Part shown: positions 42,234 through 56,132 of the stretch, piece by piece | How the letters are laid out: every line of letters begins with the position of its first letter | How positions within the stretch are numbered: position 1 is the first letter of the stretch | Source: Actinomycetota bacterium | GTDB lineage: Bacteria; Actinomycetota; Coriobacteriia; Anaerosomatales; Anaerosomataceae | DNA length: 64,000 nt | NCBI GenBank assembly: GCA_004348925.1 | Contig: RCMX01000006.1 | Span: 355,930-419,929 of the forward strand | Reading direction: 5' to 3' | Translations under genes and position numbers: made by a program | The notes under the pieces: generated by a model | Database searches by the model: none | What the model saw: the letters and a program-made list of their open reading frames with translations, nothing else | Told to the model about the DNA's origin: nothing

Positions 42234-44051
42234 TCAGCGGAGCGAGTCGAGTCCCGCTTCGCCCATCCCCAGCACCCACCCGCGCAGCAGACGCCCACAC
42301 GCGCGCACCCGCGACGGCTGCACGTGCGACGCCGTGTCCGCCGTGGTGTGGTAGACCGGGTCCTCGCGCCACTCCAGCCACGCCGCCGGGATCCCGGCTC
42401 GCTCGAAGCCCTCGTGGTCGCTCCAGCCAAAGCGGCCAGGGTCCCTGAGATACGGCAGCGCCTGGCCCACGTACGCGGCACGTGCCCGAAGCGACGCGAC
42501 CGCCGTCTGCGATCCGGTCCCAAGGCTCCGCACGTTGAAGACAGACCCGTAGCCGACCATGTCCACCGAGACCATCCCGTGGATGCGTGCCTTCTCGGCC
42601 GAGGAGAGTGCCGCCACGTACTGGCGGGAGCCGAAGTGGTGGTCGTCGGCGGTCGCGCCCGAGATCTCCTCGGCGGCAAACGCCATGAAGCGGACGGTGG
42701 GCGTGGAGGTCGTCTCGGCGAGGATGCGGGCGAGTTCAAGTGTGGTCGCAACGCCGGACGCGTTGTCGTTGCCGCCGGGCGACGGGTACTTGGAGTCGAT
42801 GTGACCGCCGAGGAGCAGCACGTCGGTGCTGGTACCGGCGCGCTCGGCGATGACGTTGCGCGAGGTCTTGCCGTCGGGCAGCATCACCGTCGGCGTGCTG
42901 ACCGAGTACCCCCAGCCCGCCAGCTGCTCCGCAACGTAGTCGAGCGCTCGCCGCTCGGCGGTGCCGCCTGCGGCGCGCGGACCGAACGCGGTGATCGCGC
43001 GAACGTGCGCCATCGCCCGGTTGATGTCGAAGCACGGCGCAACGAGCGCGTGCAGTGCCTCCTGCCGGACATGCGAGGGGACGGCCGCCGTCCCGCCGAG
43101 CACTGTGAAGCCGCCCACCTCGGCGCGGCGTGCGTAGAGTGCGGTCGCAATGCGGTCGGGCAGCCCCGCCCGTGGCGTCGGCAGGAGCAGAGCCCTGCGC
43201 TGGCCGAGCAGCACGCCGCCGGTGAGCGCATCCGGGAAGGCATCGCTTGTGGCGAGGCCCGGCTGCACCCAGGTGAAGCCGGCGCTCGTCTCGGCGTAGG
43301 CGGCCACGGCGAGCGCGGTTGCGAAGCGGTCTGGACCCGCAAGGCGCTCGGAGGTGCCGGTGATGGCCGCGACGCGCGCTTCAAGCGCTGTCGACACCGC
43401 GGGCGGCCCGCCAAGAACGACCGCATGCGAAACGCCACGCGATGCGAGCGCAGCGAGCACGCGCTCGGCAGCACGGTTCTCGTCGATGAGGTAGAGCGGA
43501 CGCCCGAGCGCGGCGGCAACGGGCCCGGCCGCCTCGGCATCGGCGAAGCCGCGACCCGTCGCGATGAAGACGACGCCGTCCCATCCCGGATTGGCCGCTA
43601 CCGTCGCCGAGGCGACCGATGCAGCGGTCTCGTAGCGGGTCGCCCCGCCTAGCCGCGTGATCGTCGCCGACGGCAGCACCTCGACAAGCGCAGCTACCAC
43701 ATCGTCGCTCACGGCCGCCGGTCCACCGAGGACATACACATCGCGCGCGCCAAGCCGCACGATCTCGGCGAGCGTCGCCGGCGTGAGGCGCGTGGGTTCC
43801 GTGAGGAGCACCGGCGCGCCAAGCGCGCCTGCAAGGCCGGTCCCCGCGAGCGCATCCGGCCACGTCGCGCCGGTCGCGAGAACGACCGCACCGGCGCCGT
43901 CGGGGAACGCGGCCTGCGAGATCGCGATCGCGGTGGTGTAGCGAGTGTCTCCCGCGTACGTCTCGAGCGTCGCGGCGTGCGCAGCTACGGGCGCGACGAA
44001 CGCACACGTCAACGCGAGCACCAGCGCAACCCGACGAGCGACGCGACTCAC
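42234..44051 (-). CDS. Secreted M28 peptidase with N-terminal CWB2 repeats
   Basis: A 605-residue exported protein: signal peptide (about 1-26, cleavage near AHA), then three CWB2 repeats (about 28-325) with RYTTAIAISQ, RYETAASVA and RFATALAVA motifs. A zinc aminopeptidase domain of the M28 type covers about 340-600. Metal and catalytic residues are visible in LLLGGHIDSKYPSPGGNDNA (His, Asp), AAEEISG (Glu pair), DMVGYG and the final YHTTADT. It probably sits on the cell wall and releases amino acids from peptides. GTG start with GGAGGG upstream. Confidence 0.92.
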   Translation of the reverse strand: MSRVARRVALVLALTCAFVAPVAAHAATLETYAGDTRYTTAIAISQAAFPDGAGAVVLATGATWPDALAGTGLAGALGAPVLLTEPTRLTPATLAEIVRLGARDVYVLGGPAAVSDDVVAALVEVLPSATITRLGGATRYETAASVASATVAANPGWDGVVFIATGRGFADAEAAGPVAAALGRPLYLIDENRAAERVLAALASRGVSHAVVLGGPPAVSTALEARVAAITGTSERLAGPDRFATALAVAAYAETSAGFTWVQPGLATSDAFPDALTGGVLLGQRRALLLPTPRAGLPDRIATALYARRAEVGGFTVLGGTAAVPSHVRQEALHALVAPCFDINRAMAHVRAITAFGPRAAGGTAERRALDYVAEQLAGWGYSVSTPTVMLPDGKTSRNVIAERAGTSTDVLLLGGHIDSKYPSPGGNDNASGVATTLELARILAETTSTPTVRFMAFAAEEISGATADDHHFGSRQYVAALSSAEKARIHGMVSVDMVGYGSVFNVRSLGTGSQTAVASLRARAAYVGQALPYLRDPGRFGWSDHEGFERAGIPAAWLEWREDPVYHTTADTASHVQPSRVRACGRLLRGWVLGMGEAGLDSLR

Positions 44052-44085
44052 GACCGACCCTCCGCTTCTCGGCGACAGGTCCAGT

Positions 44086-45261
44086 CTACTCCTCGCGCAT
44101 CCGCAGGTGCCCGGTCAGGTCGGCGCCAAGAACGGCGTGCAACTCCGAGGGGTCCTCTGCGGGCACCGCGACGAACGTGAATGCGAAGACCGGGTAGCGG
44201 TTGAAGTCGACCGGCCGAAGCTCCAGCACGCGCGAGAAGCGCGCCGCGAAGCCGCCGAAGTCGACCGACTCGATCGCCGCAAGGTCGGTGCTCGTGGGCA
44301 CATCGGCGATCACGAGCGCCGTGACCGTCCCGGCCCGCTCGGCGCAGACGCGACCCCAGTCGGGCGTCTCGGCGTTCAGGTACGTCGTGTACGGGTTGAT
44401 GCCGTAGGCGAAGTGCGCCAGATCGGTCGCGCACCAGCCACCGAAGCGCATCGGGTTGATCTCGATCGGCGCGATCGTTCCATCAGCTGAGACCCGCACC
44501 TCGGCGTGCACGGGAAAGTCGTGGAGGCTCGCGCGCCTCCCCACCTCGGCAAGGAACGCGGTGAACGGCCCGTGCCAGCGCTCGATGAGCGCCGTGCACG
44601 TGAAGTAGACGCGATCGCTCACATCTTCTGCCGAGGCGAACAGGTGACTGTAGATGTTCACGATCGTCGGCGCGCCGTCGGCATCGAAGTACGCATCGAT
44701 CGCGTACTCGTCGCCTTCGATGACCTCCTCGGCGATGAAGCGTCCGAAATCGAGGACGGCGCCCGGGTAGAGCGTCGCGAATGCGGCGGCGTCGCGCTCG
44801 ATCGCGTCGACGGCGCGCGCCCAAGCGGCGGGCGAATCGATGACGTGCACTCCCATGCTGAAGAAGCCGACGGCCGGCTTCACGACAAACGGGAACCGCA
44901 GCGAAGCCGGATCGAACCCGCGCAGCTCCGCCAGGTCGATGCCGCGAAAACCGTACGCCGGATACAGGTCGCGGAGCAACTCCCGGAAGACGACCTTGCC
45001 CTTGAAGAGCGCGACCTGCCGCGGCAGGTCGGTCCCGGCGAGGTGCTCCGCGATCCAGCCGATCGCGTTCTCGGAGTTCGCGTAGAGGCGGCTGCGGCCA
45101 TCGTGGCCGTACGCGCCCGCGAACGCGTCGTCGCCGAGCAGGACGACACCGGTGCCCGCAAGCGCCTCTCGCGCCTTCGGCGTGTCGAGGACCGGCATGT
45201 CCGTCTCGGCGACGGTATCTCGCAGCAAAGTGGAGACGTACGGTTCTTCCAGAATGAACAC
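44086..45261 (-). CDS. ATP-grasp domain protein
   Basis: A 391-residue ATP-grasp enzyme: FPFVVKPAVGFFSMGVHVI carries the ATP-binding Lys, EEVIEGDEYAIDAYFD the adenine/ribose side, and PIEINPMRFGGW the metal-binding Glu/Asn. Such proteins join a carboxylate to an amine or thiol via an acyl-phosphate; the substrate is unknown. The start is a GTG with GGAG 6 bases upstream; an in-frame stop lies just before. It follows the small membrane operon, apparently on its own. Confidence 0.85.
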   Translation of the reverse strand: MFILEEPYVSTLLRDTVAETDMPVLDTPKAREALAGTGVVLLGDDAFAGAYGHDGRSRLYANSENAIGWIAEHLAGTDLPRQVALFKGKVVFRELLRDLYPAYGFRGIDLAELRGFDPASLRFPFVVKPAVGFFSMGVHVIDSPAAWARAVDAIERDAAAFATLYPGAVLDFGRFIAEEVIEGDEYAIDAYFDADGAPTIVNIYSHLFASAEDVSDRVYFTCTALIERWHGPFTAFLAEVGRRASLHDFPVHAEVRVSADGTIAPIEINPMRFGGWCATDLAHFAYGINPYTTYLNAETPDWGRVCAERAGTVTALVIADVPTSTDLAAIESVDFGGFAARFSRVLELRPVDFNRYPVFAFTFVAVPAEDPSELHAVLGADLTGHLRMREE

Positions 45262-45300
45262 CAGCAGCTCCAGACGATCGCAGGCGCAGTGACAGCGATT

Positions 45301-46173
45301 CTACACGGTCCGGACGCTGCGCATCATCCGCCACGCAAGCACACCGGAGGCCGCCGCTGCGGCAGCGAACATCACGAACGGAACGACCTCAAGCGAGCCC
45401 TCCACAAGCGCTGCCGAGACGAGCATCGCGCAGATCGCACCCGACATGGTCACACCCTTGATCGCGAAGACCGGCGCGAGCAGGTATCCCCACGGCTTCG
45501 ACCGCGCAAGCAGCGCGGCAGTTGCTACCGCGAGCGGCACGAGCATCCCGAGGTCCATCGCCTGCACGGTGAGCGTCGGCATCCCGAAGAGCGAGGCACC
45601 GGCAAGATCGCCCGAAAGTCCCGTCGCGATACGCTGCGTCCACATCACGAGCAGCATGAGCGCCACCAGCACGCTGAAGATCGCCATCCCTTTGCGCGGG
45701 AACCCCGCCGAGAACCGTCCCGGCAGCTCCGCGATGTCGATCGTGGAGACGATCCACACGATCGCGCAAGCCGCTGCGGCATACAACACGATGAAGACCG
45801 GGAAGAGCGGACCAAGCGCCCAGAACATCGCGTACATCATGTACTGATACAGGAAGTACGCCAGTATCCCGATCGCGAAGAGGCGTCCGCCGAGCGATCC
45901 GCGCCTGAGCGACGGCAACACCAGCAGGAGCGCCGGCACCGCGAAGACGAGCGTCACAATGTCCCAGCCCACGCCCTCGGCAACCACGCGCTCCGCATTG
46001 AACGCGTAGATGCCATCGGTGGCGTACTCGAACTGCTCCCCGCGGATGCTCACAGCCGAGGCGGTCGCACCGGTGCCGCGGTCGAACACCCCGATTGCCG
46101 AGGCGACCCCGGCCACCAGGGCGATCGCGAGACAGAGCGCCGCGATGCCATTGAAGGTGCGCCCGCCGCTCAT
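45301..46173 (-). CDS. Polytopic membrane protein coupled to flavodoxin
   Basis: A 290-residue protein with about eight hydrophobic helices, no obvious motif, and conserved-looking aromatic stretches (FLYQYMMYAMFWALGPLFPV). I do not recognise a characterised family. Its ATG overlaps the flavodoxin stop (ATGA), so it belongs to the TetR - flavodoxin - membrane protein operon. It could be a membrane partner of the flavodoxin, but nothing in the sequence proves it. Confidence 0.72.
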   Translation of the reverse strand: MSGGRTFNGIAALCLAIALVAGVASAIGVFDRGTGATASAVSIRGEQFEYATDGIYAFNAERVVAEGVGWDIVTLVFAVPALLLVLPSLRRGSLGGRLFAIGILAYFLYQYMMYAMFWALGPLFPVFIVLYAAAACAIVWIVSTIDIAELPGRFSAGFPRKGMAIFSVLVALMLLVMWTQRIATGLSGDLAGASLFGMPTLTVQAMDLGMLVPLAVATAALLARSKPWGYLLAPVFAIKGVTMSGAICAMLVSAALVEGSLEVVPFVMFAAAAAASGVLAWRMMRSVRTV

Positions 46174-46826
46174 GACAGCCCAAGCAGAGGAGCGGTCTCG
46201 GTGGTCCAGGCGGCCACAGCCTCGAAGTCCCGGAAGTCGCCCTCGGGGGCCTTCATCATCTTCATGATGAGGCGCTCGGGGAGCGAGAACTTCTTGGGAT
46301 CATTCATGCCGGCGAACAGGCCGAGTGCCACCGGCGTCACGCCGGTCTCGGCGATGAGCGGGTCCGTGTACGCGCGAACCTCGTCGACCTTCTCGGGATT
46401 GGTGCCCATCGTGAGGCACGCCGTATAGAACGCCGTTGGCGTGCTCTTGAGCGCGTCGGCGTTCACCGAGACCCACTCCTTCACGGCACCATGCCAGCTG
46501 CTCGCCCGGATCCCGCTTCCGACCACGATGGCGTCGTAGCCGGCAGGGCTCGGCTTGTCCTCGGCGGGCTTGACATCAACAGTCACGCCGCCCGCAGCAA
46601 GCGTCTCGCCGATCTTCTCGGCGATGCCCGAGGTGCATCCGGTCTTCGTTCCGTATACGACCAGTACCTTGCTCATGCCATCTCCCATCGTTTCGCGGAG
46701 GAGTCCCTCCGCTGCGTCTTCCGGTGCCCATTTGGCAGCTACATAGCCCGCTCCACCAAGCGCAACCGCGCCGGTAACGGCAGCGCCGCCGAGGACGAAC
46801 TGCCGCCTTGAGATTCCGCTTGCCAT
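46170..46826 (-). CDS. Flavodoxin-domain protein with twin-arginine signal
   Basis: A 218-residue protein. The N-terminus MASGISRRQFVLGGAAVTGA is a Tat-type signal or anchor. Residues about 50-218 form a flavodoxin-like fold, with the FMN loop VVYGTKTGCTSGIAEKIG and the following GYDAIVVGSGIRASSWHG, resembling protoporphyrinogen oxidase/menaquinone-type flavodoxins (HemG-like). ATG overlaps the TetR stop (TGATG). An exported flavodoxin is unusual and would imply a folded, cofactor-loaded export. Confidence 0.85.
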   Translation of the reverse strand: MASGISRRQFVLGGAAVTGAVALGGAGYVAAKWAPEDAAEGLLRETMGDGMSKVLVVYGTKTGCTSGIAEKIGETLAAGGVTVDVKPAEDKPSPAGYDAIVVGSGIRASSWHGAVKEWVSVNADALKSTPTAFYTACLTMGTNPEKVDEVRAYTDPLIAETGVTPVALGLFAGMNDPKKFSLPERLIMKMMKAPEGDFRDFEAVAAWTTETAPLLGLS

Positions 46827-47431
46827 CACACACGCTCCTTTGGCGCGGCGCCCGACCAGAACAGGTCGAACAGCTGCGCGATCCCGTCATCGGTGCTCAC
46901 GTCCGCAGGCATCGGGGCGACACCCATGACGATGCGGTACATCACGTAGCTCGACGTCAGGCCGAAGAACGCCTCGGCCATCACGCTCGCGTCGATGTCG
47001 TCGCGCAGCTCCCCGGTCGCCTGATGCTCGGCCAGATACTCCGCGAGCCCGGCGGCGTTGTTCGGGATCCCTTCGCCGAGCAGCGCCGCGACCTCCGGGA
47101 CCGATTTCGCGTCGAACGCGAGGCGGATTGCGAGCGCGCCCCCGGCCATCGTCGCCTCGATCTCCATCCGGGCCAGACGCAGGAGCGTCTCCCGGACCGA
47201 TTCCGAATCGGGCGCAGCGGCTGCGGCGTGACCTGCCTGCTGCTGCTGGATCCTCCTGCCGAGTGCCGTCAGAACGCCGACCTTGTTCTCAAAGCGGCGA
47301 AAGAGCGTGACCTCGTTCACTCCGGCGGCCTCGGCGATCGCGCGCGTCGTCGTCCCCGCGTAACCGTGGACGGCGAAGAGCTCTGCGGCTGCGTCGAGGA
47401 TTCGCTCGCCGGTGTCGTGCGGTGCGTCCAT
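46826..47431 (-). CDS. TetR-family regulator of the flavodoxin operon
   Basis: A 201-residue repressor. The HTH is GERILDAAAELFAVHGYAGT, TTRAIAEAAGVNEVTLFRRF, followed by a helical ligand domain. The second ATG was chosen because GGAG lies 5-6 bases upstream. It heads the flavodoxin/membrane-protein operon and probably autoregulates via dyads around 47456-47513. Confidence 0.9.
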   Translation of the reverse strand: MDAPHDTGERILDAAAELFAVHGYAGTTTRAIAEAAGVNEVTLFRRFENKVGVLTALGRRIQQQQAGHAAAAAPDSESVRETLLRLARMEIEATMAGGALAIRLAFDAKSVPEVAALLGEGIPNNAAGLAEYLAEHQATGELRDDIDASVMAEAFFGLTSSYVMYRIVMGVAPMPADVSTDDGIAQLFDLFWSGAAPKERV

Positions 47432-47501
47432 AAGAGCTCCCATCGATGGTGCATGTAAGTGCCTGCTTGCACTCTACGACAGGGCGACACGCGCTGTCAA
47501 G

Positions 47502-47513
47502 CAAGTACTTGCA
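47502..47513. promoter_or_regulatory. Palindrome upstream of the flavodoxin-operon TetR
   Basis: A perfect 12-base palindrome GCAAGTACTTGC. A related degenerate copy (TAAGTGCCTGCTTGCA, 47456-47471) lies closer to the TetR start. Both are plausible operators for that TetR. Confidence 0.55.
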
Positions 47514-47531
47514 TTCACTCGATTCAAGGAA

Positions 47532-47560
47532 GAGGCGCCGCCCGAATCGGACGACGCCTC
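47532..47560 (-). terminator. Terminator of the sulfur/Fe-S operon
   Basis: Imperfect hairpin with outer stem GAGGCG / CGCCTC and inner CCG / CGG pairs, followed on the minus strand by TTCCTT. It lies 25 bases beyond the iscU-like stop. Confidence 0.6.
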
Positions 47561-47584
47561 GGTACGTTCGCGCTCGATCTCGCT

Positions 47585-48388
47585 CTACGGCTCCAGCAGC
47601 ACCACCGCATCGACGAAGAGTTCGTACTGGTTGTCCTCATCCAGGTCGTGGATGCGTACCTTCTCGACCTCGCCTTCACCGAGCACCGAGAGCAGCCGCG
47701 CTTGGTAGAGCACCTTCACGTCAGAGCGCTTGATCTCGCCCGAGAGGTCCTCGGGCAGGCCGAGCGTATCGAGCTCGGTCAGGAACACCACGCGCGGCGT
47801 CACCTTCGTGAGCTCGAGTGCCAGCTTCGCCGAAGCGGACCCGCGATCGAGGACGAGCGTGCGCTTGTCGGCAAGCTCGCTCACGTCGTCGACATGCTTG
47901 TAGAGCCCCTTGCCGAGATAGTCGTCGGCATTGGCGACAACCGTCGCAGCCGGAACCGCGCAGCCGGAGCCCGCGCCCGCGACCTCCTCGGCGGTCAGCG
48001 GCTCGAGCTTCTTGCCGGAGCGCCAGTTCTTGATGGCGTCGTGCAGCGCATCGGCCGCCAGGTTGGAGCAGTGCATCTTCACCGGTGGCAGCCCGTCGAG
48101 CGCGTCGGCCACATTGCCGCGCGTCACACCGAGCGCCTCATCAAGCGTCATGCCCTTCACGAGCTCGGTCGTCATCGACGATGTCGCCACCGCTGAGCCG
48201 CATCCGAACGTCTGGAACCGGATGTCGGCGATTCGGTCGTCGGCGACTCTGATGTACATCTCCATGAGGTCGCCGCAGACAGGGTTCCCCAGGCGACCGA
48301 TCGCCACATCGTCGCCCTCAAGCGTCCCGACGTTGCGCGGGTTGCGGAAGTGATCGAGGGTCTTCTCGGAATACTGGGTGGATTTCAT
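47585..48388 (-). CDS. iscU: IscU/NifU-type Fe-S scaffold fused to a degenerate thioredoxin-reductase-like domain
   Basis: A 267-residue protein. Residues 1-127 are an IscU scaffold with cluster ligands Cys38, Cys63 and Cys107 and Asp40 in GNPVCGDLMEMYI, TFGCGSAVATSS and KMHCSNLAADAL. Residues about 174-267 resemble the NAD(P)H-binding lobe of thioredoxin reductase: RGSASAKLALELTKVTPRVV, then VKVLYQARLLSVLGEGEVEK and YELFVDAVVLLE. The GxGxxA dinucleotide loop is altered (DRGSAS), so NADPH binding is doubtful. Directly follows the IscS-like gene. Acts in Fe-S cluster assembly in the cytosol; the role of the added domain is unknown. Confidence 0.88.
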   Translation of the reverse strand: MKSTQYSEKTLDHFRNPRNVGTLEGDDVAIGRLGNPVCGDLMEMYIRVADDRIADIRFQTFGCGSAVATSSMTTELVKGMTLDEALGVTRGNVADALDGLPPVKMHCSNLAADALHDAIKNWRSGKKLEPLTAEEVAGAGSGCAVPAATVVANADDYLGKGLYKHVDDVSELADKRTLVLDRGSASAKLALELTKVTPRVVFLTELDTLGLPEDLSGEIKRSDVKVLYQARLLSVLGEGEVEKVRIHDLDEDNQYELFVDAVVLLEP

Positions 48389-48398
48389 AGGGAGTCTC

Positions 48399-49565
48399 CT
48401 AGTCCGTCTTGTAGAGCGGCGACATCCGGCGCAGCCGGAGCACGATACCGGGCAGCACCTCCATCACCCGGTCGATGTCGCTGTCCTTGCTGAAGCGCCC
48501 GAACGTGAATTCGAGCGAGCCGTGCGCCTCTTCATGCAGCAGGCCACACGAGATGAGCGTGTGACTCGGCTCGAGCGTCTTGCTCGAGCATGCCGAGCCG
48601 GTCGAGACCGCGATGCCCTCGTCGCGCATCGAGAGCAGCAGCGACTCGCCCTCCACGCCCTCGAAGCGGAAGTGCGCGTTGTTGGGCAGGCGCAGCGTGG
48701 GGTGCCCGTTGAGGTGCGAGTCAGGGATCGTCGAGAGCACCGCCGAGATGAGCCGGTCGCGCATCGCGGCCATGCGGGCCGCATCGGCCGCCATCTCAGC
48801 TGCGGAGATGTCGGCCGCCTCGGCCATCCCAACGATGAGCGGCAGCGGTTCGGTGCCCGAGCGAAGCCCGCGCTCCTGGCCGCCTCCCATCATGATCGGG
48901 CCCAGCTTCACACCCTTGCGGATGTAGAGTGCGCCAAGTCCCGGCGGACCGTAGATGTCGTTGCTTGAGAGTGTGAGCAGGTCGACCGGCACCTCGCGCA
49001 TATCGATCGGCAGCTGGCCCTCGGCCGCCACCGCGTCCACATGCAGCGCAACGCCGGTGCCCTTGAGCATCTCGGCGATCTCGGCTATCGGCTGCACGGT
49101 GCCGATCTCGTTGCTTGCCCACCCCACCGAGACCAGGATCGTGTCGTCGGTGATGCGCGAGCGGAGCTTGGCGGGATTAATGCGGCCGAACTGGTCGGGC
49201 GGCACTTTCCCGACCTTGAACTCGGCCTTCTCCAGGTACTTCCCGATGTTGTGAATCGAGATGTGATCCACTTCCGAGATGATCACGTGGTCGCCCGCGC
49301 GCTTGTTGCGGTTGGCGTAGCCGATGAGCGCGAGGTTGTTCGACTCGGTCGCGCCGGAGGTGAAGATCACCTCGTCGGGCTCTGCGCCGATGAATGCCGC
49401 TACCCGGGCGCGACTCTCCTCGAGCGCGGCCGTCGCACGATCGCCCACGCCATGCAGAGACGCGGCATTGCCGAACCGCTCGGTGAAGAACGGTAGCATG
49501 GCGTCGAGAACGCGCGGATCGACCGGCTTTGCCGATTGGTAGTCGAGGTAGACCTCATCAGTCAT
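48399..49565 (-). CDS. iscS: IscS/NifS-family protein lacking the PLP lysine
   Basis: A 388-residue aminotransferase-V-fold protein, overall a NifS/IscS homologue with the cysteine desulfurase active-site loop STGSACSSKTLEPSH (Cys326). The normal HK at the PLP Schiff-base position is replaced: TLSSNDIYGPPGLGALY has Asn202-Asp203. The sequence was checked on the DNA at this position. The Archaeoglobus fulgidus IscS is known to have Asp at the same site and to lack PLP, so classical desulfurase activity is not expected. Context is tusA - dsrE - iscS - iscU, suggesting sulfur comes from a relay or sulfide. The start MTDEVYLDYQSAKP is the family N-terminus. Confidence 0.93.
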   Translation of the reverse strand: MTDEVYLDYQSAKPVDPRVLDAMLPFFTERFGNAASLHGVGDRATAALEESRARVAAFIGAEPDEVIFTSGATESNNLALIGYANRNKRAGDHVIISEVDHISIHNIGKYLEKAEFKVGKVPPDQFGRINPAKLRSRITDDTILVSVGWASNEIGTVQPIAEIAEMLKGTGVALHVDAVAAEGQLPIDMREVPVDLLTLSSNDIYGPPGLGALYIRKGVKLGPIMMGGGQERGLRSGTEPLPLIVGMAEAADISAAEMAADAARMAAMRDRLISAVLSTIPDSHLNGHPTLRLPNNAHFRFEGVEGESLLLSMRDEGIAVSTGSACSSKTLEPSHTLISCGLLHEEAHGSLEFTFGRFSKDSDIDRVMEVLPGIVLRLRRMSPLYKTD

Positions 49566-49575
49566 CGCACGCCGC

Positions 49576-49938
49576 CTAGAACCACATGGTGGCGCCGGCG
49601 TCGAGCGCAAGGTCGTTCAGCGTCGCGGCGCCGACGATCTTGACGCCGTCGATGAGTTCCACGCTGTCCCAGCCGAGCATCTGCTTGGACGCCTCGCACA
49701 CGAGAACCGGAATCCCCATGTCGATCGTCTTGCGGAGCATCTCGGCAACGGTCGGGAAGGAGCCGGCCTGCATCGCCTCGGCAGCGCCGGGCTTGAGCAC
49801 CCTCAGGCCCATTCCCAGGTAGTAGACGGTGGGGTTCAGATTCATCGCTTTGGCGGTCTGCGCCAGAACGAGCGGCGAGTACTGCCGCATCGGGTCATCA
49901 CTTGTCTGCACGTACAGGATCGCGTTCTCGTCTTTCAT
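49576..49938 (-). CDS. DsrE-family sulfur-relay protein
   Basis: A 120-residue DsrE/DsrF-like protein: ILYVQTSDDPMRQYSPLVLA, NLNPTVYYLGMGLRVLKPG, then GIPVLVCEASKQMLGW with Cys near residue 82. Single-domain DsrE proteins carry persulfide sulfur on a conserved Cys. It lies between tusA and the IscS-like gene with gaps of about ten bases, so all four genes form one operon. Confidence 0.85.
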   Translation of the reverse strand: MKDENAILYVQTSDDPMRQYSPLVLAQTAKAMNLNPTVYYLGMGLRVLKPGAAEAMQAGSFPTVAEMLRKTIDMGIPVLVCEASKQMLGWDSVELIDGVKIVGAATLNDLALDAGATMWF

Positions 49939-49948
49939 CGTCGGCCTC

Positions 49949-50191
49949 CTACTCGCCCTTGCGGATAAGGAATCGCTTGTGGTCGCCCACGTCTTCCACG
50001 GCCACGATCTCGTGTCCGGCGCGCTTTGCGAATCGCGTGAGATCCTCCTCGGCGGCAGGATCATCGGCGAAGACCTCAAGCACGTCGCCGACCTCGATCT
50101 CGTCTATCGCCGCACGCGTCTGGAACAGCGGCTCCGGGCAGTACAGCCCGATGCAATCCAGCGTCTCGGATACCGGGTCGGTGTGACTCAT
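49949..50191 (-). CDS. tusA: TusA-family sulfur carrier
   Basis: An 80-residue SirA/TusA-fold protein. The persulfide-carrying Cys18 lies in the CPxP motif (GLYCPEPLFQTR), with another Cys at 13. The remainder (IEVGDVLEVFADDPAAEEDL) is the typical beta-alpha-beta fold. It is the first gene of the tusA-dsrE-iscS-iscU operon and can be expected to hand sulfur to its neighbours. Confidence 0.93.
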   Translation of the reverse strand: MSHTDPVSETLDCIGLYCPEPLFQTRAAIDEIEVGDVLEVFADDPAAEEDLTRFAKRAGHEIVAVEDVGDHKRFLIRKGE

Positions 50192-50232
50192 GGCGCACCT
50201 CTCAACTGCCTCGATCTTGCATTGCGAGAGTA

Positions 50233-50259
50233 GTATTCCCATCTGCGTGGTAGGAATAC
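50233..50259. promoter_or_regulatory. Inverted repeat ahead of the tusA operon
   Basis: GTATTCC (50233-50239) and GGAATAC (50253-50259) form a perfect 7-base dyad with a 13-base gap, about 42 bases before the tusA start and between the divergent tusA and lipoprotein genes. A regulator binding site is likely; the protein is not identified. Confidence 0.45.
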
Positions 50260-50330
50260 CCTAGAGGACGAACCACACCCCGGTTCGAGCCGTCCAAGAC
50301 GTTGTAGGACAACGAACAGGGAGGCACGCA

Positions 50331-50777
50331 ATGAAGAGAAAGATTCTCGCCGTACTGGCAGTGAGCATGCTCGCGATCGCACTGATGGGTTGCGCTTCGG
50401 ATGCGCAGGTGAACCCCGGCGAGGGAGTCGTGCCACCGCCCTCGGATGGTGGTGCAGCGGCCGGTTCACGGCTCGCTCCCGGCCTCTACGACCTGGATGA
50501 TGGCACCGTCCAGGCACTCGGAACGCTCGAGTACCGCGACCTTGAGGGCGGCTTCTGGGCGATCATCGGTGGCACGGAGGCGGACGGAAACGTCGGGACG
50601 GTCGTTGCGGTGATCGCGAATCCGGATGAATTCGCATCAGACCTGGACGCGCTTTCGGGCAAGACGGTCACGGTGAGCGGGAAGCGCGTCGACGGCGCGT
50701 CGATCCGGATGGCCGGCCCTGAGGTGACCATCACCTCGATCCAGGAAGTGAGCGACACGGGCGGCGCTGCCGAGTAA
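50331..50777 (+). CDS. Small lipoprotein with OB-like beta domain
   Basis: A 148-residue exported lipoprotein: lipobox LMGC (Cys21), a low-complexity linker with Pro and Gly, then a beta-rich domain (TVQALGTLEYRDLEGGFWAI ... LDALSGKTVTVSGKRVDGAS). Its pattern of strands and the final GPEVTITSIQEV resemble small OB-fold (BOF-like) lipoproteins. GGGAGG precedes the ATG. Divergent from the tusA operon. Function unknown. Confidence 0.75.
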   Translation: MKRKILAVLAVSMLAIALMGCASDAQVNPGEGVVPPPSDGGAAAGSRLAPGLYDLDDGTVQALGTLEYRDLEGGFWAIIGGTEADGNVGTVVAVIANPDEFASDLDALSGKTVTVSGKRVDGASIRMAGPEVTITSIQEVSDTGGAAE

Positions 50778-50815
50778 GGGCCGTGCGGCAATCGCACCGG
50801 CTGCTACGACATACG

Positions 50816-50845
50816 AAGGGGCCCCGCTTCAGCGGGGCCCCTTCG
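50816..50845. terminator. Bidirectional terminator
   Basis: Stem GAAGGGGCCCCGCT / AGCGGGGCCCCTTC, nearly without loop, lying between the convergent lipoprotein and TetR genes. Serves both directions by position. Confidence 0.75.
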
Positions 50846-50864
50846 AGTGGCTCGGACCCGAGAC

Positions 50865-51494
50865 CTACGCTCCGCTTCCGGCTATGAGGCAGTTCACGAG
50901 AACATCCGCCGTGCGCGTTGCGACGGCGACGACCTGCTCCAGGTTCGGATCGGCGATGTCGACGGTCAGGCGGCGGGATATCGAGAGCGATGTAGCGCCA
51001 TGCAGCGCTGCCCACCCGGCGTCGTTGAATGCACGGAGACTGGTCGGCTCGCGGAGATCTCCCTCGGCGAGGGCCTCGCCCAGGAGCTGCATCGCGATAA
51101 TACGCCCTCGGGTGAGCCGACCGATGTTCGCCTCGGTCCACGCCGAATCCCACTCGACATCCAGGGGCACCTGGAACATCAGGGTGTAGTGCCCGGGATG
51201 CGTGACGCCCCATCGAACGTACGCCCGACAGTACTGCCGGAACTTGTCGATGGCGCGTGGCCCGACCATCACCATCTCACACGCGGCATTCATGCTGTCG
51301 AAGGCATTGAGAACGGTCTCCTGCAGAATCGCGTTCTTGTCTCTGAAGTACAGATAGAGCGTGGTCGGGCTGTACCCGATCTTCTCGGCGACTTCGCGCA
51401 TCGTCACGCAATCAGGTCCACATGCCTCGATGATCTCGGACGCGGCTTTGAGGATCTTCTCACGCAACTCAGGGTTGGCCGGTCGTGCGCACAT
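50865..51494 (-). CDS. TetR-family regulator divergent from an ABC exporter
   Basis: A 209-residue repressor: LREKILKAASEIIEACGPDC, VTMREVAEKIGYSPTTLYLY, then a TetR_C-like ligand domain (YCRAYVRWGVTHPGHYTLMF). The ATG with GAGGAG upstream was preferred to a GTG three codons earlier. Divergent transcription from the ABC permease across a gap holding clear TAAGTTAT dyads indicates local control. Confidence 0.9.
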   Translation of the reverse strand: MCARPANPELREKILKAASEIIEACGPDCVTMREVAEKIGYSPTTLYLYFRDKNAILQETVLNAFDSMNAACEMVMVGPRAIDKFRQYCRAYVRWGVTHPGHYTLMFQVPLDVEWDSAWTEANIGRLTRGRIIAMQLLGEALAEGDLREPTSLRAFNDAGWAALHGATSLSISRRLTVDIADPNLEQVVAVATRTADVLVNCLIAGSGA

Positions 51495-51530
51495 CGCGCC
51501 CACTCCTCGGTGTCGAGCAATATGTACACG

Positions 51531-51633
51531 AATAAGTTATCGCCAATCCTTATGTCGGTCAAGTTCGCGCATCTTCTTGAAATTGCCTTGACAAGCCGTT
51601 CGCCGGGTAATAACTTATGCCCCGTAAGTTATT
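51531..51633. promoter_or_regulatory. TAAGTTATT operators between TetR and ABC permease
   Basis: A perfect inverted repeat AATAACTTA (51609-51617) - 7 bases - TAAGTTATT (51625-51633) lies ahead of the permease gene. A further half-site AATAAGTTAT (51531-51540) lies near the TetR start. AT-rich against the GC-rich background, typical of TetR operators. Confidence 0.7.
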
Positions 51634-51684
51634 GCGGTTCGCTAATTGCCGCTGGAAGCGGCGCTGAATGAAGGCGGGGACACC

Positions 51685-52845
51685 ATGGGAGTCATTCGGA
51701 ACGTGTTCAGACGTAAGATGCGAGCATTCCTGACCATCTTCGGCATCACGATCGGCGTACTCGCGCTCGTCGTGATGGGCGCGATGGCCGAGAAGCTCAA
51801 CCTGTTGGTCGACGGCGGGATCCGCTACTACGGCGACAAGGTCACCGTGACGGACTCCGGCGCGAACGGGGCGCTGGGAGGACCCCTGTCGGTCACGAAG
51901 ATCAAGGAACTAGAGGACGTCGAGGGCGCAGCTCGTGCGTCCGCTAGCCTCAGTATGCTGCTCGATCCAGAGTCGACCGGCGGGACGATTGGGGTTCCGC
52001 AGATGATCACCGGAACCGACGGGCGCCAGCGCGGCTACGAATCATCCGAGCTGAAGTGCGCGGAAGGCCGCAACCTGCAGCTTGGCGACAAGGGAGTCGT
52101 CGTGCTCGGGAGCGACCTGGCGACCAAACTCGACGCTGAAGTCGGCAAAGAAGTCACCGTACGCGGACGTCAGTTCGAAGTCGTCGGCATTACCGAGCGG
52201 ACGCTTACGGCGCCCGATCAGACGGTCATGATGTCGCTGGCAGACGCTCAGCAGCTGTACCTCGACGACATTCCAGAGGCCATGCGAGCGAGCGTCGACG
52301 CCGCCGACCTGTGCACGAGCATCGCCGTCTTCGCGCGCGACGGCGTCGATCCCGAGAAGCTGGCCGTGTCGATCGGCAACACCGTGACCGGCATCACCGC
52401 GTCCGGGCCACGAGCGTTCGAGGAGCAGGTCGGCAGCCAGATGAAGATCTTCAACTCCATCATCTACGGAATCGCGCTCGTATCACTGCTTGTCGGTAGC
52501 CTCTCGGTGATCAACACGATGACGATGTCTGTCGCCGAGCGAACCCGTGAGATCGGCATACGCAAGGCGATCGGCGCCACCCATGGCGCGATCATGCGGC
52601 AGTTCGTCGCGGAATCCGCGGTCATCGGCTTCGCAGGCGGCGTGACCGGCCTGGCGCTGGGCGCAGCTGTGGTAGCCGCTCTGAACGCCGGCGGCGCAGC
52701 GTCGGGCACCATGTTGTTCATGATCACCACCAGACTCGCCGTCGGCTCGCTTGGCTTCGCGGTCCTGCTCGGCGTGGTCTCTGGTATCTATCCCGCCCTG
52801 CATGCAGCAAACCTGAGCCCCGTGAAGGCGCTGCGCTACGAGTAG
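51685..52845 (+). CDS. MacB/FtsX-type ABC transporter permease
   Basis: A 386-residue permease: N-terminal helix RAFLTIFGITIGVLALVVMG, an extracytoplasmic domain (about 40-255), then three helices including ISLLVGSLSV-like IALVSLLVGSLSVINTMTMS, RTREIGIRKAIGATHGAIM and GIYPALHAANLSPVKALRYE. It is shorter in its outer domain than the 30237 permease. Works with the ATPase 65 bases downstream. The TetR dyads lie directly upstream. No adaptor protein is present in this second system. Confidence 0.92.
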   Translation: MGVIRNVFRRKMRAFLTIFGITIGVLALVVMGAMAEKLNLLVDGGIRYYGDKVTVTDSGANGALGGPLSVTKIKELEDVEGAARASASLSMLLDPESTGGTIGVPQMITGTDGRQRGYESSELKCAEGRNLQLGDKGVVVLGSDLATKLDAEVGKEVTVRGRQFEVVGITERTLTAPDQTVMMSLADAQQLYLDDIPEAMRASVDAADLCTSIAVFARDGVDPEKLAVSIGNTVTGITASGPRAFEEQVGSQMKIFNSIIYGIALVSLLVGSLSVINTMTMSVAERTREIGIRKAIGATHGAIMRQFVAESAVIGFAGGVTGLALGAAVVAALNAGGAASGTMLFMITTRLAVGSLGFAVLLGVVSGIYPALHAANLSPVKALRYE

Positions 52846-52910
52846 CCCGACGCGTACGACCACGACACACCCATTGCCGGAATGAACCGGCTTACACAAG
52901 GAGAACCACA

Positions 52911-53780
52911 ATGCTTGGATCAATGAGTTCATACACGCTCGCCACGAGCGACCGTCACCGCCAGCTCACCGCACCGACACGCGATCCGAAGAACGGGTCC
53001 AGCACACGGGCCGTCCTCACGGCGAACACCGCCGGTGCGAAAGCCGAGAAGACCAGAGCAACTCGCATGAACGGACCGGTTATCGAGGTCCGAAACCTGG
53101 TCAAGCGCTACCGGCTTGGGAAGAACAACCACGTGCACGCACTCCGGGGAGCATCGTTGCGAGTCGAGGCGGGCGAGATGGTTGCCATAGTCGGCCCGTC
53201 GGGCTCCGGCAAGTCCACGATGATGCACCTCATCGGCTGCCTCGATACCCCGGACAGCGGTGATGTCATCATCAACGGGCGGCGCACCGGCGGTCTCAAG
53301 GGCCGCGAGCTCACCACGCTTCGCAGCACCGAAGTCGGCTTCATCTTCCAGGGCTTCAACCTGGTACCGACGATGACAGCGCTCGAGAACGTCGCACTCG
53401 CCGCCGAGTACGCCGGCCTGCCCCGCCGAGCGTCGCGCGCTCGTGCCGCCGATCTGCTCGAACTTGTCGGCATTGCGGATCGCGCAGGACACCTCCCGAG
53501 CGAGCTCTCCGGGGGGCAGCAGCAACGCGTGGCTATCGCGCGGGCGCTCATCAACCGACCGTCGATCGTGTTCGGCGACGAGCCGACCGGCGACCTCGAC
53601 ACCGCAACCTCGGACGAGATCATCTCCGTGATGCGCACGATCAACCGGGAGACCGGAACGACGTTCGTCCTTGTGACGCACAACCCCGAGGTAGCCGAGG
53701 CATGCGACCGCACCATACGGATGCGGGACGGTCGCGTCGAGGACGATGAGCGTCCGGCCCGCGTGGCTACCATCGCATAG
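52911..53780 (+). CDS. ABC transporter ATPase with unusual N-terminal extension
   Basis: A 289-residue ATPase of the LolD/MacB type. The ABC domain begins near residue 53 (NGPVIEVRNLVKRYRLG) with Walker A GPSGSGKST, Q-loop FIFQGFNLVPTM, signature LSGGQQQRVAIARAL, Walker B IVFGDEPTGDLD and switch LVTHNPEVAEACD. The first 52 residues are a polar extension not usual for the family. The outer ATG has an excellent site (AAGGAGAACCACA), whereas the inner ATG at 53067 has none, so the extension seems to be translated. It pairs with the upstream permease. Confidence 0.9.
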   Translation: MLGSMSSYTLATSDRHRQLTAPTRDPKNGSSTRAVLTANTAGAKAEKTRATRMNGPVIEVRNLVKRYRLGKNNHVHALRGASLRVEAGEMVAIVGPSGSGKSTMMHLIGCLDTPDSGDVIINGRRTGGLKGRELTTLRSTEVGFIFQGFNLVPTMTALENVALAAEYAGLPRRASRARAADLLELVGIADRAGHLPSELSGGQQQRVAIARALINRPSIVFGDEPTGDLDTATSDEIISVMRTINRETGTTFVLVTHNPEVAEACDRTIRMRDGRVEDDERPARVATIA

Positions 53781-53899
53781 GGTCCCCCGGTCCCCGCCGG
53801 GGACCGACGGGCAGGCCGTTCCTGAACGCGAGGGGCGGCCTGTCTGCGTTCGCCGGGCCCGATCCGCATCAAGGGCTGTCGGACAGGGCTCCGGCCGAG

Positions 53900-53929
53900 A
53901 AGGACGGCCACCACCCGGTGGCCGTCCTT
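53900..53929. terminator. Hairpin terminator between ABC ATPase and small gene
   Basis: Perfect 13-base stem AAGGACGGCCACC / GGTGGCCGTCCTT with loop ACCC, four bases beyond the stop of the small minus-strand gene. It may serve both convergent units. Confidence 0.75.
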
Positions 53930-53933
53930 GCTC

Positions 53934-54149
53934 CTAGCGGATACGCGTGCTGTCTGGCACGTGATGGTCTGCGTGGCTCCGCATTGATGGACCGACCCTG
54001 CTTCTGGGCCTCTCGATGCGCAGATCGTGCAGTCGTGCATTCAGTCGACCCGCGTAGGCGGTGATGGTATCCAGCGCGTGGGCTGACAGACCAGGCAGGT
54101 CGATGGTGTAGCTCGATCGCGCATAGGCGCGCGAGGTTGATTCGAACAT
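53934..54149 (-). CDS. Small unknown protein (71 residues)
   Basis: A 71-residue protein with no family I recognise. The N-terminal part (MFESTSRAYARSSYTIDLPG) is polar, the centre (LSAHALDTITAYAGRLNARL) could be an amphipathic helix, and the tail is basic with several His and Arg. Support for a real gene: GGAGGAG about 8 bases before the ATG, a perfect terminator just behind the stop, and a promoter upstream that it shares with the tiny gene before it. It could be a small regulator or an immunity-like partner of the 26-residue peptide; this is speculation. Confidence 0.55.
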   Translation of the reverse strand: MFESTSRAYARSSYTIDLPGLSAHALDTITAYAGRLNARLHDLRIERPRSRVGPSMRSHADHHVPDSTRIR

Positions 54150-54195
54150 CGCGGGGCTCCTCCCCATCGGGGGTGCCCGCGACGTCTACTCGAGA

Positions 54196-54276
54196 TCAGA
54201 CGGCGCGGCGCACCGGAATACGGACGTACAGCGATACCGGGCACTCCATGCCCTGCGTGCAGATGGGTTTCGTCAT
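54196..54276 (-). CDS. 26-residue Cys-containing peptide gene
   Basis: Begins MTKPICTQGMECPVSL and ends in a basic, hydrophobic tail. Two cysteines lie six residues apart (Cys6 and Cys12). The ATG has one of the best ribosome sites in the window (GGAAGGAGGG, 7 bases away) and lies about 60 bases behind a consensus-like promoter. The 71-residue gene follows after 46 bases. Too short for gene finders. Not recognised; could be a leader, a secreted or modified peptide, or a small metal-binding peptide. Confidence 0.5.
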   Translation of the reverse strand: MTKPICTQGMECPVSLYVRIPVRRAV

Positions 54277-54334
54277 GTCTCGTCCCTCCTTCCGGTCGCG
54301 TGAGACCCTTCAGTCTCGGCCTGCTGCCTTCGGC

Positions 54335-54363
54335 ATGGTACCAAACGGTCCGCCAGGGTTCAA
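54335..54363 (-). promoter_or_regulatory. Promoter of the two small genes
   Basis: On the minus strand TTGAAC (54363-54358), 17 bases, TACCAT (54340-54335), ideal spacing for a housekeeping sigma factor. The 26-codon gene starts about 60 bases downstream. Confidence 0.55.
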
Positions 54364-54479
54364 GCAATCCCTTCCAGGTATCGGAGACGTTGCCGGCGAC
54401 CCATCAACCGACGGGTCGCGCAGAATCGCCCATCGAGTGGTACCGTAGTTAGCCATCGTCCCCCGACAGAGCCTGGATC

Positions 54480-56132
54480 ATGGCCGCCATAGTCGAAGCG
54501 TGGCGCGCCGGACTCCTCCGACGCGACAACTGGATACGGAACATCACCGCCGGCGTCGTGGTCGGCGTAGTTTCGATACCCCTCTCCATGGCATTCGCCA
54601 TCGCCTCGGGCGCCAATCCGGAGCAGGGGCTCTACACTGCGATCGTGGCCGCTCTCGCGGTATCGCTCTTCGGTGGCACTCGCGTTCAGATCGCCGGCCC
54701 CACAGGCGCCTTCGCTGTGCTGCTCTTCGGTGTGACCGCCAAGTACGGCATCGCCGGCCTTCAGGTCGCCACTGCGCTCGCCGGCATCATGCTGCTGCTC
54801 TTCGGCCTCACGAAACTCGGTGGAGTCATCCGCTTCATCCCCGAGCCGGTCATCCTCGGCTTCACAGCAGGCGTGGCCGTCCTCATCTGGGTGGGGCAGT
54901 GGCAGAGCTTCTTCGGACTCCCACCAGCAGTGGGGGAGCACTTTCACGAAAGGCTGCTGGCGCTCCTCGGCACACTCCCGAACCTGCATGCGGCAACCAC
55001 GACGCTTGGCGTGGCGAGCATGGCTATCATCGTGCTCTGGCCGAGAATCCCTGCGATTGGCAAGGTGCCCGGCCCACTCGTGGCGCTTGTTGCCGCAACG
55101 ATGCTGCAGTCAACGCTCCACATCGACGGCATCGCGACGATCGGCTCGGCGTTCGGCGGGATACCGCGCGGACTGCCCGCCTTCGCGCTGCCGCTCCTGC
55201 CATTCGGCACCATCCTTGAGCTGCTGCGACCGGCCTTCGCGATCGCACTGCTGGGTGCAGTCGAGTCGCTGCTGTCGGCCACGGTCGTGGACGGCATGAC
55301 CGGCTACCGGCACGACTCCAATCAAGAGCTCATCGGGCAGGGCATCGCAAACGTGGGTGCCGCTCTTCTCGGTGGCTTCGCGGCGACTGGCGCCATCGCC
55401 CGCACCGCCACGAACGTCCGCCACGGCGGCAACAGTCCGATCGCCGGCGTCGCCAGCTCGGTCACACTGCTGCTCACGGTGCTTGTGCTGGCGCCACTCG
55501 CGTACAACGTCCCGCTCACCACGCTCGCGGCAGTGCTCTTCGTCGTGGCGTGGAACATGAGCGAGGCGAAGCGCGTCGTCCGCACCGTCAAGCGCGCACC
55601 TAGAGCGGATGTCGCCATCATGCTCATCACGCTCGGCCTCACGGTCTTCACCGACCTCATCGTCGCGGTGAACGTCGGCGTGATCCTCGCGATGCTCAAC
55701 TTCATGCGTCGCATGTCCTCCTCGGTGGAAACGCGAGCCCTTGATACAGAAGAGGTCGTCGGACAGCTCCCAACGTCGAACTCGCAGCCGATTCCCGAGG
55801 GCGTGCTGGTGTACACGATCGAGGGGCCGTTCTTCTTCGGCGCCGTGCAACAGTTCGAGGCGGCGCTTCAGCACACGCATACCGAGCCGACTGCGCTCGT
55901 GATCAACCTGGAACGGGTGCCGTTCATCGACCTCACGGGTATCCTCGCCCTCAAGGACGTTATCGAGGCGTCCCGAAAGCGCGATGTCGACGTTCGCCTC
56001 TGCTGCGCGAACGAGCTCGTGACCGGGAAGCTGACGCGCGCCGGGATCGCTGACCTGGTGACGGTGCCGGTCTCGGCACCTCTGGCCGAGGCGCTCGGCC
56101 TCGCATGTCCGGTTCCCGCCCACGCAGGGTAG
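54480..56132 (+). CDS. SulP-family anion transporter with STAS domain
   Basis: A 550-residue protein. Residues 1-420 contain the SulP core with the hallmark VVVGVVSIPLSMAFAIASGA and GLYTAIVAALAVSLFGGTRV, then GPTGAFAVLLFG. A cytoplasmic STAS domain (about 435-545) includes VYTIEGPFFFGAVQQFEAAL and VPFIDLTGILALKDVIE. SulP proteins carry sulfate, bicarbonate or dicarboxylates; the substrate is not evident. The ATG has a weak ribosome site. It is 9 bases from the TspO gene downstream. Confidence 0.93.
   Translation: MAAIVEAWRAGLLRRDNWIRNITAGVVVGVVSIPLSMAFAIASGANPEQGLYTAIVAALAVSLFGGTRVQIAGPTGAFAVLLFGVTAKYGIAGLQVATALAGIMLLLFGLTKLGGVIRFIPEPVILGFTAGVAVLIWVGQWQSFFGLPPAVGEHFHERLLALLGTLPNLHAATTTLGVASMAIIVLWPRIPAIGKVPGPLVALVAATMLQSTLHIDGIATIGSAFGGIPRGLPAFALPLLPFGTILELLRPAFAIALLGAVESLLSATVVDGMTGYRHDSNQELIGQGIANVGAALLGGFAATGAIARTATNVRHGGNSPIAGVASSVTLLLTVLVLAPLAYNVPLTTLAAVLFVVAWNMSEAKRVVRTVKRAPRADVAIMLITLGLTVFTDLIVAVNVGVILAMLNFMRRMSSSVETRALDTEEVVGQLPTSNSQPIPEGVLVYTIEGPFFFGAVQQFEAALQHTHTEPTALVINLERVPFIDLTGILALKDVIEASRKRDVDVRLCCANELVTGKLTRAGIADLVTVPVSAPLAEALGLACPVPAHAG

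Follow-up and report, generated by a model that had tools for sequence, protein, structure and literature searches.

The window, as we call the whole stretch of 64,000 nucleotides analysed here, carries four minus-strand genes separated by gaps of 10 nt each, which encode the sulfur carrier TusA, a DsrE-like protein, an IscS/NifS homologue devoid of the PLP-binding lysine, and an IscU with a C-terminal extension (Table 1). The cassette tusA-dsrE-iscS-iscU is flanked on both sides by TetR-type regulators. Downstream of it, past one TetR gene, there is a gene for a flavodoxin-domain protein, and a sulfate permease family gene is located about 4 kb from the cassette; a peptidase gene with cell wall binding repeats is also found in the neighbourhood.

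Table 1. Features of the tusA-dsrE-iscS-iscU cassette and of neighbouring genes (positions in the window)
Feature	Position	Strand	Description
tusA	49949..50191	-	Sulfur carrier, 80 aa; Cys18 of CPxP motif; PF01206 83 bits
dsrE-like gene	49576..49938	-	120 aa; Cys81 in VCEASKQMLGW; PF02635 43 bits, PF13686 47.6 bits
iscS	48399..49565	-	Lys-less IscS/NifS homologue, 388 aa; ATG at 49565, stop ending 48399; PF00266 243 bits, 4eb5 465 bits
Ala180	49026..49028	-	In place of Gln183 (E. coli), which hydrogen-bonds PLP
Asn202		-	Next to Asp203; replaces His205 (E. coli)
Asp203	48957..48959	-	Codon GAC; in place of PLP lysine (E. coli Lys206)
Cys326	48588..48590	-	Loop cysteine (E. coli Cys328), kept
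Glu352	48510..48512	-	In place of Arg354 (E. coli), contact of cysteine substrate
iscU	47585..48388	-	Scaffold gene
iscU, N-terminal domain	48005..48388	-	NifU_N/IscU domain, residues 1-128; PF01592 152 bits
iscU, C-terminal extension	47585..48004	-	Residues 129-267 and stop; degenerate thioredoxin-reductase-type NAD(P)-domain
Flavodoxin-domain gene	46173..46829	-	Start resembling a twin-arginine signal; PF12724 88 bits, PF10518 slightly below cut-off
Sulfate permease family gene	54480..56129	+	With STAS domain
Peptidase gene	42237..44051	-	Peptidase M28 domain behind three cell wall binding 2 repeats

The iscS product is a member of the class-V aminotransferase family with sequence kinship to IscS/NifS. 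It matches TIGR03402 with 454.5 bits, under the curated cut-off of 530.75, and the NCBIfam NifS and IscS models both match it, each below its curated cut-off. The earlier note on this DNA had read an aspartate instead of the PLP lysine in the motif SSNDIYGPPG and an intact active-site Cys326 loop, and both readings hold: the aspartate is residue 203 and the loop reads STGSACSS. The closest lysine is residue 217, 14 residues from Asp203, with none within 13 residues, and the PLP lysine is therefore not displaced. The protein thus lacks the Schiff-base lysine of PLP-dependent cysteine desulfurases, and Ala, Asn and Glu occupy the places of Gln183 and His205 (cofactor) and Arg354 (substrate), while the mobile loop with the catalytic cysteine is present. 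Compared with five relatives the gene has a dN/dS of 0.075-0.158, and the frame is therefore under purifying selection. A pseudogene was ruled out by dN/dS values of 0.03-0.18 across the four cassette genes (one TusA pair with saturated dS excluded) and by conservation across phyla.

The same replacements recur in homologues (E. coli numbering is used hereafter in this paragraph). In an alignment of 40 rows, comprising 38 genome loci, the window protein and Archaeoglobus fulgidus IscS, Gln183 is changed to Ala, His205 to Asn and Lys206 to Asp in 40/40, and Asp180, Ser203 and the loop cysteine, Cys328, are retained in 40/40. A wider alignment contained 37 Lys-less and 29 canonical rows. All 37 Lys-less rows have Ala183 and Asn205, position 206 is Asp in 35 and Ser in two, and the arginine at position 354 is gone, being replaced by Gln (17), Glu (13) or Leu (7); among the 29 canonical rows Gln183 is found in 28, His205 in 29, Lys206 in 29 and Arg354 in 28. 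Since the lysine column is Asp or Ser in 37/37 Lys-less and Lys in 29/29 canonical rows, a chance change or sequencing error at residue 203 of the window protein was rejected. Thr76, His104, Asp180, Ser203 and Cys328 are kept in 37/37 Lys-less rows; position 243 is less strict, with Ser or Ala instead of Thr in 15/37. The residue loss is broader than the earlier note had it, with four active-site positions changed together and the Cys loop kept; cofactor and substrate sites are both altered and the sulfur-carrying loop is preserved. In E. coli IscS the variants H104Q, Q183E and K206A are reported to have no desulfurase activity, some PLP still being held by K206A, and Arg354 contacts the substrate, R354K being nonetheless active (passages of PMC9978102). 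The two proteins with Ser for Lys (L214:3079-4266 and L216:2962-4200, Asgard genomes G435 and G445) read SANSIYGPQG with the loop STGASCAS and are also encoded in tusA-dsrE-iscS-iscU order. The TusA footprint on the E. coli IscS helix is described as W45, E49 and D52 (part of PMC2854127). At position 45 the main Lys-less clade has a clade-specific invariant Asp (24/24), and positions 49 and 52 show no higher conservation in Lys-less than in canonical IscS.

Kinship with A. fulgidus IscS, proposed in the earlier note, was borne out by phmmer searches and by two trees. Among solved structures the top match is A. fulgidus IscS (4eb5, 465 bits, aligned end to end), which reads SSNDIYGPKG at the lysine site; 4r5f follows with 462 bits, its chain reading SSNKIYGP, that is with Lys at that place, after which the score drops to 326 bits for the next desulfurase. 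In a tree of 68 rows, from which the partial rows L043, L044, L049 and L050 were left out, 36 Asp-bearing proteins group together in a single clade (100/100), at the base of which A. fulgidus IscS is placed. A second tree was built from a hand-picked subset of 66 rows with Asgard diversity added and the three trait columns removed. It again contains a single Lys-less clade (100/99), which includes A. fulgidus IscS as well as both proteins with Ser for Lys and inside which Asgard sequences branch deep. By clade and by the absent lysine the window protein is thus an A. fulgidus-type IscS. The topology suggests that the lysine was lost a single time, in archaea or close to them, before the protein spread to bacteria, the root not being fixed.

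Hosts of the Lys-less clade are Actinomycetota, Deltaproteobacteria, WOR-3, Aminicenantes, Aerophobetes and Asgard archaea. Counted by the gap in scores, carriers make up 13/396 genomes in the class of the window (at least 601 versus at most 455 bits) and 4/247 in the phylum of genome G410 (at least 713 versus at most 517 bits), where all four read Asp. In the phylum to which the Lokiarchaeote G422 belongs, 62/148 genomes score above 555 bits, and the best 20 of the 62, which were read, all have Asp; a more distant, lower-scoring Lys-less group of this phylum (L201-L209) was sampled and stands outside the count. Loss of the lysine as a common event in IscS was rejected for the sets examined, relatives on viral contigs having Lys in 56/57 cases and no residue aligned at the position in the remaining one.

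The earlier note had placed the gene in a tusA-dsrE operon, and this arrangement proved to be conserved in the Lys-less clade and absent beside the canonical IscS loci examined. TusA adjoins 36 of the 38 Lys-less loci, both exceptions beginning at a contig end; DsrE is found beside 32, IscU beside 37, and the C-terminal extension of IscU in 36. All four parts are present in 30/38, four of the others being cut by contig ends and four being Deltaproteobacterial loci without DsrE. Among 32 Asgard Lys-less loci, two of which repeat loci of the 38, TusA is adjacent in 27 and DsrE in 20. Neither TusA nor DsrE was found alongside lysine-bearing IscS/NifS in three control sets (0/31, 0/8 and 0/11, in total 0/50), with flanks usually about 1.5 kb and some shorter; 28 of the 31 loci came from the window's genome or from cassette-bearing genomes. 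Asgard loci L201-L205 have a Lys-less IscS without adjoining TusA or DsrE, the flanks of L202 and L205 being short. A larger conserved operon was rejected, as synteny across the 38 loci extends to no gene family beyond the four; rubrerythrin-like and P-type-ATPase-like frames, identified by eye, were seen repeatedly close to a few cassettes.

The partner proteins retain their sulfur-handling residues. Cys18 of TusA is invariant (37/37) and Cys13 is found in 36/37, and Cys81 of DsrE is invariant in 33/33. The IscU domain is a NifU_N scaffold with three Cys, one Asp and one His as ligands (Cys38, Asp40, Cys63, His106 and Cys107), each cysteine being conserved in 38/38 and Asp40 and His106 being invariant in 18 rows. 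The IscU extension has weak matches to pyridine-nucleotide oxidoreductase models (PF00070 in 7/18 members), and about 120 residues of its AlphaFold model (mean pLDDT 84.1, pTM 0.52) match thioredoxin reductases and FNR2 (best E among these 1.6e-9). In the extension rows examined, the first glycine of what we take to be the dinucleotide motif is replaced. Nucleotide binding, and with it a functional NAD(P)H input through the extension, is doubtful because the glycine motif is degenerate. Loci L206-L209, L214 and L216 encode a short IscU without the extension (open reading frames of 129-142 aa), which is why the extension was probably a later addition.

A second, canonical desulfurase, for which the earlier note had recommended a search, is present in the window's genome (99.21% complete) in an Rrf2-iscS-iscU locus with FSGHKIYG and the Cys loop, and cysteine-derived sulfur is therefore available in this cell. 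The genome also encodes a second desulfurase-like protein of the K-type (SGHKGLLG) and a second TusA, and it gave no match to SufB/SufD and no match to PF02635 besides that of the cassette. Neighbours of the second TusA, at L266 (G000:C3, contig positions of about 142.7-143.0 kb), are a DsrE2-type protein (PF13686), a regulator of the ArsR type and a membrane protein resembling nitrate reductase gamma; this is likely a sulfane-sulfur redox cluster. A canonical desulfurase is also present in most of the host genomes examined, and 17/37 cassette-bearing genomes have a SUFBD match. A SufS-type enzyme with HK and RSGxHC is present in 18 of the 21 Asgard genomes that gave a single IscS-type match. 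In the other three (G430, G559 and G568, the latter two judged on top matches) and in G421 no canonical desulfurase was found, these assemblies being possibly incomplete. Selenocysteine in the second desulfurase of relatives was rejected, as the flagged TGA codons are ordinary stops at the gene end. At L273:2-2440 (G427:C361) a single frame fuses a molybdopterin oxidoreductase to a C-terminal IscS-like desulfurase that has the lysine (PF00384, PF01568 and PF00266), which suggests an enzyme that brings along the sulfur for its molybdenum site. Open frames of the size of the fusion, 1140 and 1150 aa, occur in G427:C361 and G428:C381, the domains having been read in the first.

The catalytic site is lost, the sulfur-handling cysteine is kept, and the gene stands in an operon with two sulfur carriers and a scaffold, which together suggest an iron-sulfur assembly line that does not itself break down cysteine. 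We see about an even chance that the Lys-less IscS is a pseudo-desulfurase, serving as a persulfide way-station and assembly platform between TusA/DsrE and IscU. It has retained the fold of an IscS together with the mobile Cys loop and an IscU partner, whereas the residues for the PLP Schiff base and for cysteine binding are lost. TusA and DsrE would bring sulfane sulfur to Cys326, which would hand it to the nascent cluster on the IscU of the adjacent gene, or hold the sulfur as a cluster ligand. In E. coli the sulfur passes from IscS to TusA; as the Lys-less protein cannot make a persulfide by known chemistry, the flow between the two would here be reversed, or absent. We infer this sulfur flow, its direction and a source other than cysteine; the invariant sulfur-transfer cysteines of all four proteins argue for it. 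In another system the persulfide of TusA is reported to pass to DsrE in vitro, bidirectionally (part of PMC13293266), and according to two other papers sulfide alone can persulfurate DsrE (PMC3397948) and rescues E. coli without iscS, not without iscU (PMC13015791). Of the two options named in the earlier note, a persulfide relay and free sulfide, either may apply, and we favour the relay because the genes of the two carriers, whose sulfur-transfer cysteines are invariant, accompany the Lys-less form but not the active one.

Several observations weigh against such a relay. As most host genomes examined hold a canonical desulfurase, the sulfur could still derive from cysteine, and that enzyme would then charge the TusA of the cassette, the Lys-less IscS re-routing the sulfur to its own IscU. 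The K-type IscS-IscU and the second K-type desulfurase of the window's genome, the SufS-type enzyme retained in 18/21 Asgard genomes and the reported charging of TusA by IscS in E. coli (part of PMC2854127) are consistent with a cysteine-fed relay, yet the four possibly incomplete genomes in which no canonical desulfurase was found speak against it, and we hold it to be rather unlikely. The footprint positions 49 and 52 have no extra conservation, and four Deltaproteobacterial loci do without DsrE and five Asgard ones, two of them short-flanked, without both TusA and DsrE. Another explanation follows the model of A. fulgidus: no persulfide would form on the protein, the loop cysteine would be a temporary ligand of an IscU cluster made from free sulfide, and TusA/DsrE would have a linked but separate purpose. 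The position of the protein within the A. fulgidus clade, the reported complex of A. fulgidus IscS with IscU (PMC7585200, in part) and the sulfide-fed assembly described for the SMS of Methanocaldococcus jannaschii in passages of PMC12192291 point this way. However, it leaves unexplained why TusA and DsrE with invariant cysteines accompany the Lys-less clade and none of the canonical IscS loci examined, and we judge it unlikely.

It is quite improbable that the product is something other than a general Fe-S cluster, the cassette storing or detoxifying sulfane sulfur or maturing one special client. Most cassette genomes do have another desulfurase or cluster system and the cassette IscU has an extra domain, but its IscU domain retains all cluster ligands and no further family accompanies the cassette across the 38 loci. 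Since Thr76, His104, Asp180 and Ser203 are kept in 37/37 rows, a pyridoxal-type ligand might still bind, which also counts against the pseudo-desulfurase. That a pyridoxal cofactor is kept in another form, such as pyridoxamine phosphate, for chemistry needing no lysine, could also draw on the residual PLP of E. coli K206A (PMC9978102, in part); with Gln183 and Arg354 lost as well and Thr243 relaxed in 15/37, it is hardly credible. Returning to the pseudo-desulfurase, a wider proposal is more tentative and in our view somewhat short of even: a distinct, ancient, PLP-free ISC system of anaerobes. In such a system a pseudo-desulfurase would receive inorganic sulfane sulfur from TusA and DsrE and load IscU with it, and no cysteine would have to be desulfurated for clusters to be built. 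The system would have arisen once and spread to bacteria, an origin in archaea being probable because the Asgard and Archaeoglobus lineages branch deepest.

We rate the Lys-less IscS as already known and the cassette as a new variant. A literature search on TusA, DsrE, IscS and IscU together, Lys-less IscS, MIS and Asgard Fe-S assembly found no paper on the cassette, most subscription journals lying outside its coverage. How an A. fulgidus-type IscS aids cluster building without desulfurase activity becomes a testable question, as the cassette names TusA and DsrE as likely partners. If the relay is true, ISC-type Fe-S assembly from inorganic sulfur would be widespread in anaerobes, including Asgard archaea, and the annotation of these Lys-less proteins as cysteine desulfurases would be wrong.

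Structural work on A. fulgidus IscS reportedly described an IscS with the lysine changed to aspartate, in complex with an IscU whose [2Fe-2S] cluster is ligated by the loop cysteine. That protein (PDB 4eb5, 4eb7, 4hvk; 4r5f) and the one of the window share this exchange, the SSNDIYGP motif, the loop cysteine, an IscU partner and one clade, whereas the solved A. fulgidus IscU chain, of 153 aa, matches the N-terminal domain only and is without the C-terminal extension of the cassette IscU. What the earlier note had stated of the A. fulgidus protein agrees with passages of PMC7585200, where it has no desulfurase activity and its cysteine is a ligand to the IscU cluster. The same source, as far as its passages go, describes the IscS1-IscU1 pair of Methanosarcina acetivorans (MA0808-MA0807), with an IscS1 without the lysine and an enlarged IscU1 of 24.2 kDa, in a cluster with four genes of unknown function; the likeness to the cassette is drawn from this description. 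In the YTD cluster and related sulfur-carrier loci tusA also adjoins a dsrE-like gene (parts of PMC13293266 and PMC12998232). The cassette differs from the YTD cluster in having an IscS-IscU pair in place of the YedE permease, no YedE being detected by Pfam among the neighbours tested (42237-56129). With the canonical ISC and MIS systems (IscS-IscU and MisS-MisU) the cassette shares the fold, an IscU scaffold with all ligands and the neighbouring position of the two genes. Judged on these features, it has the pair characteristic of MIS without the desulfurase residues: the canonical systems use a PLP cysteine desulfurase (PMC12192291, in part), whereas the IscS of the cassette has lost four active-site residues.
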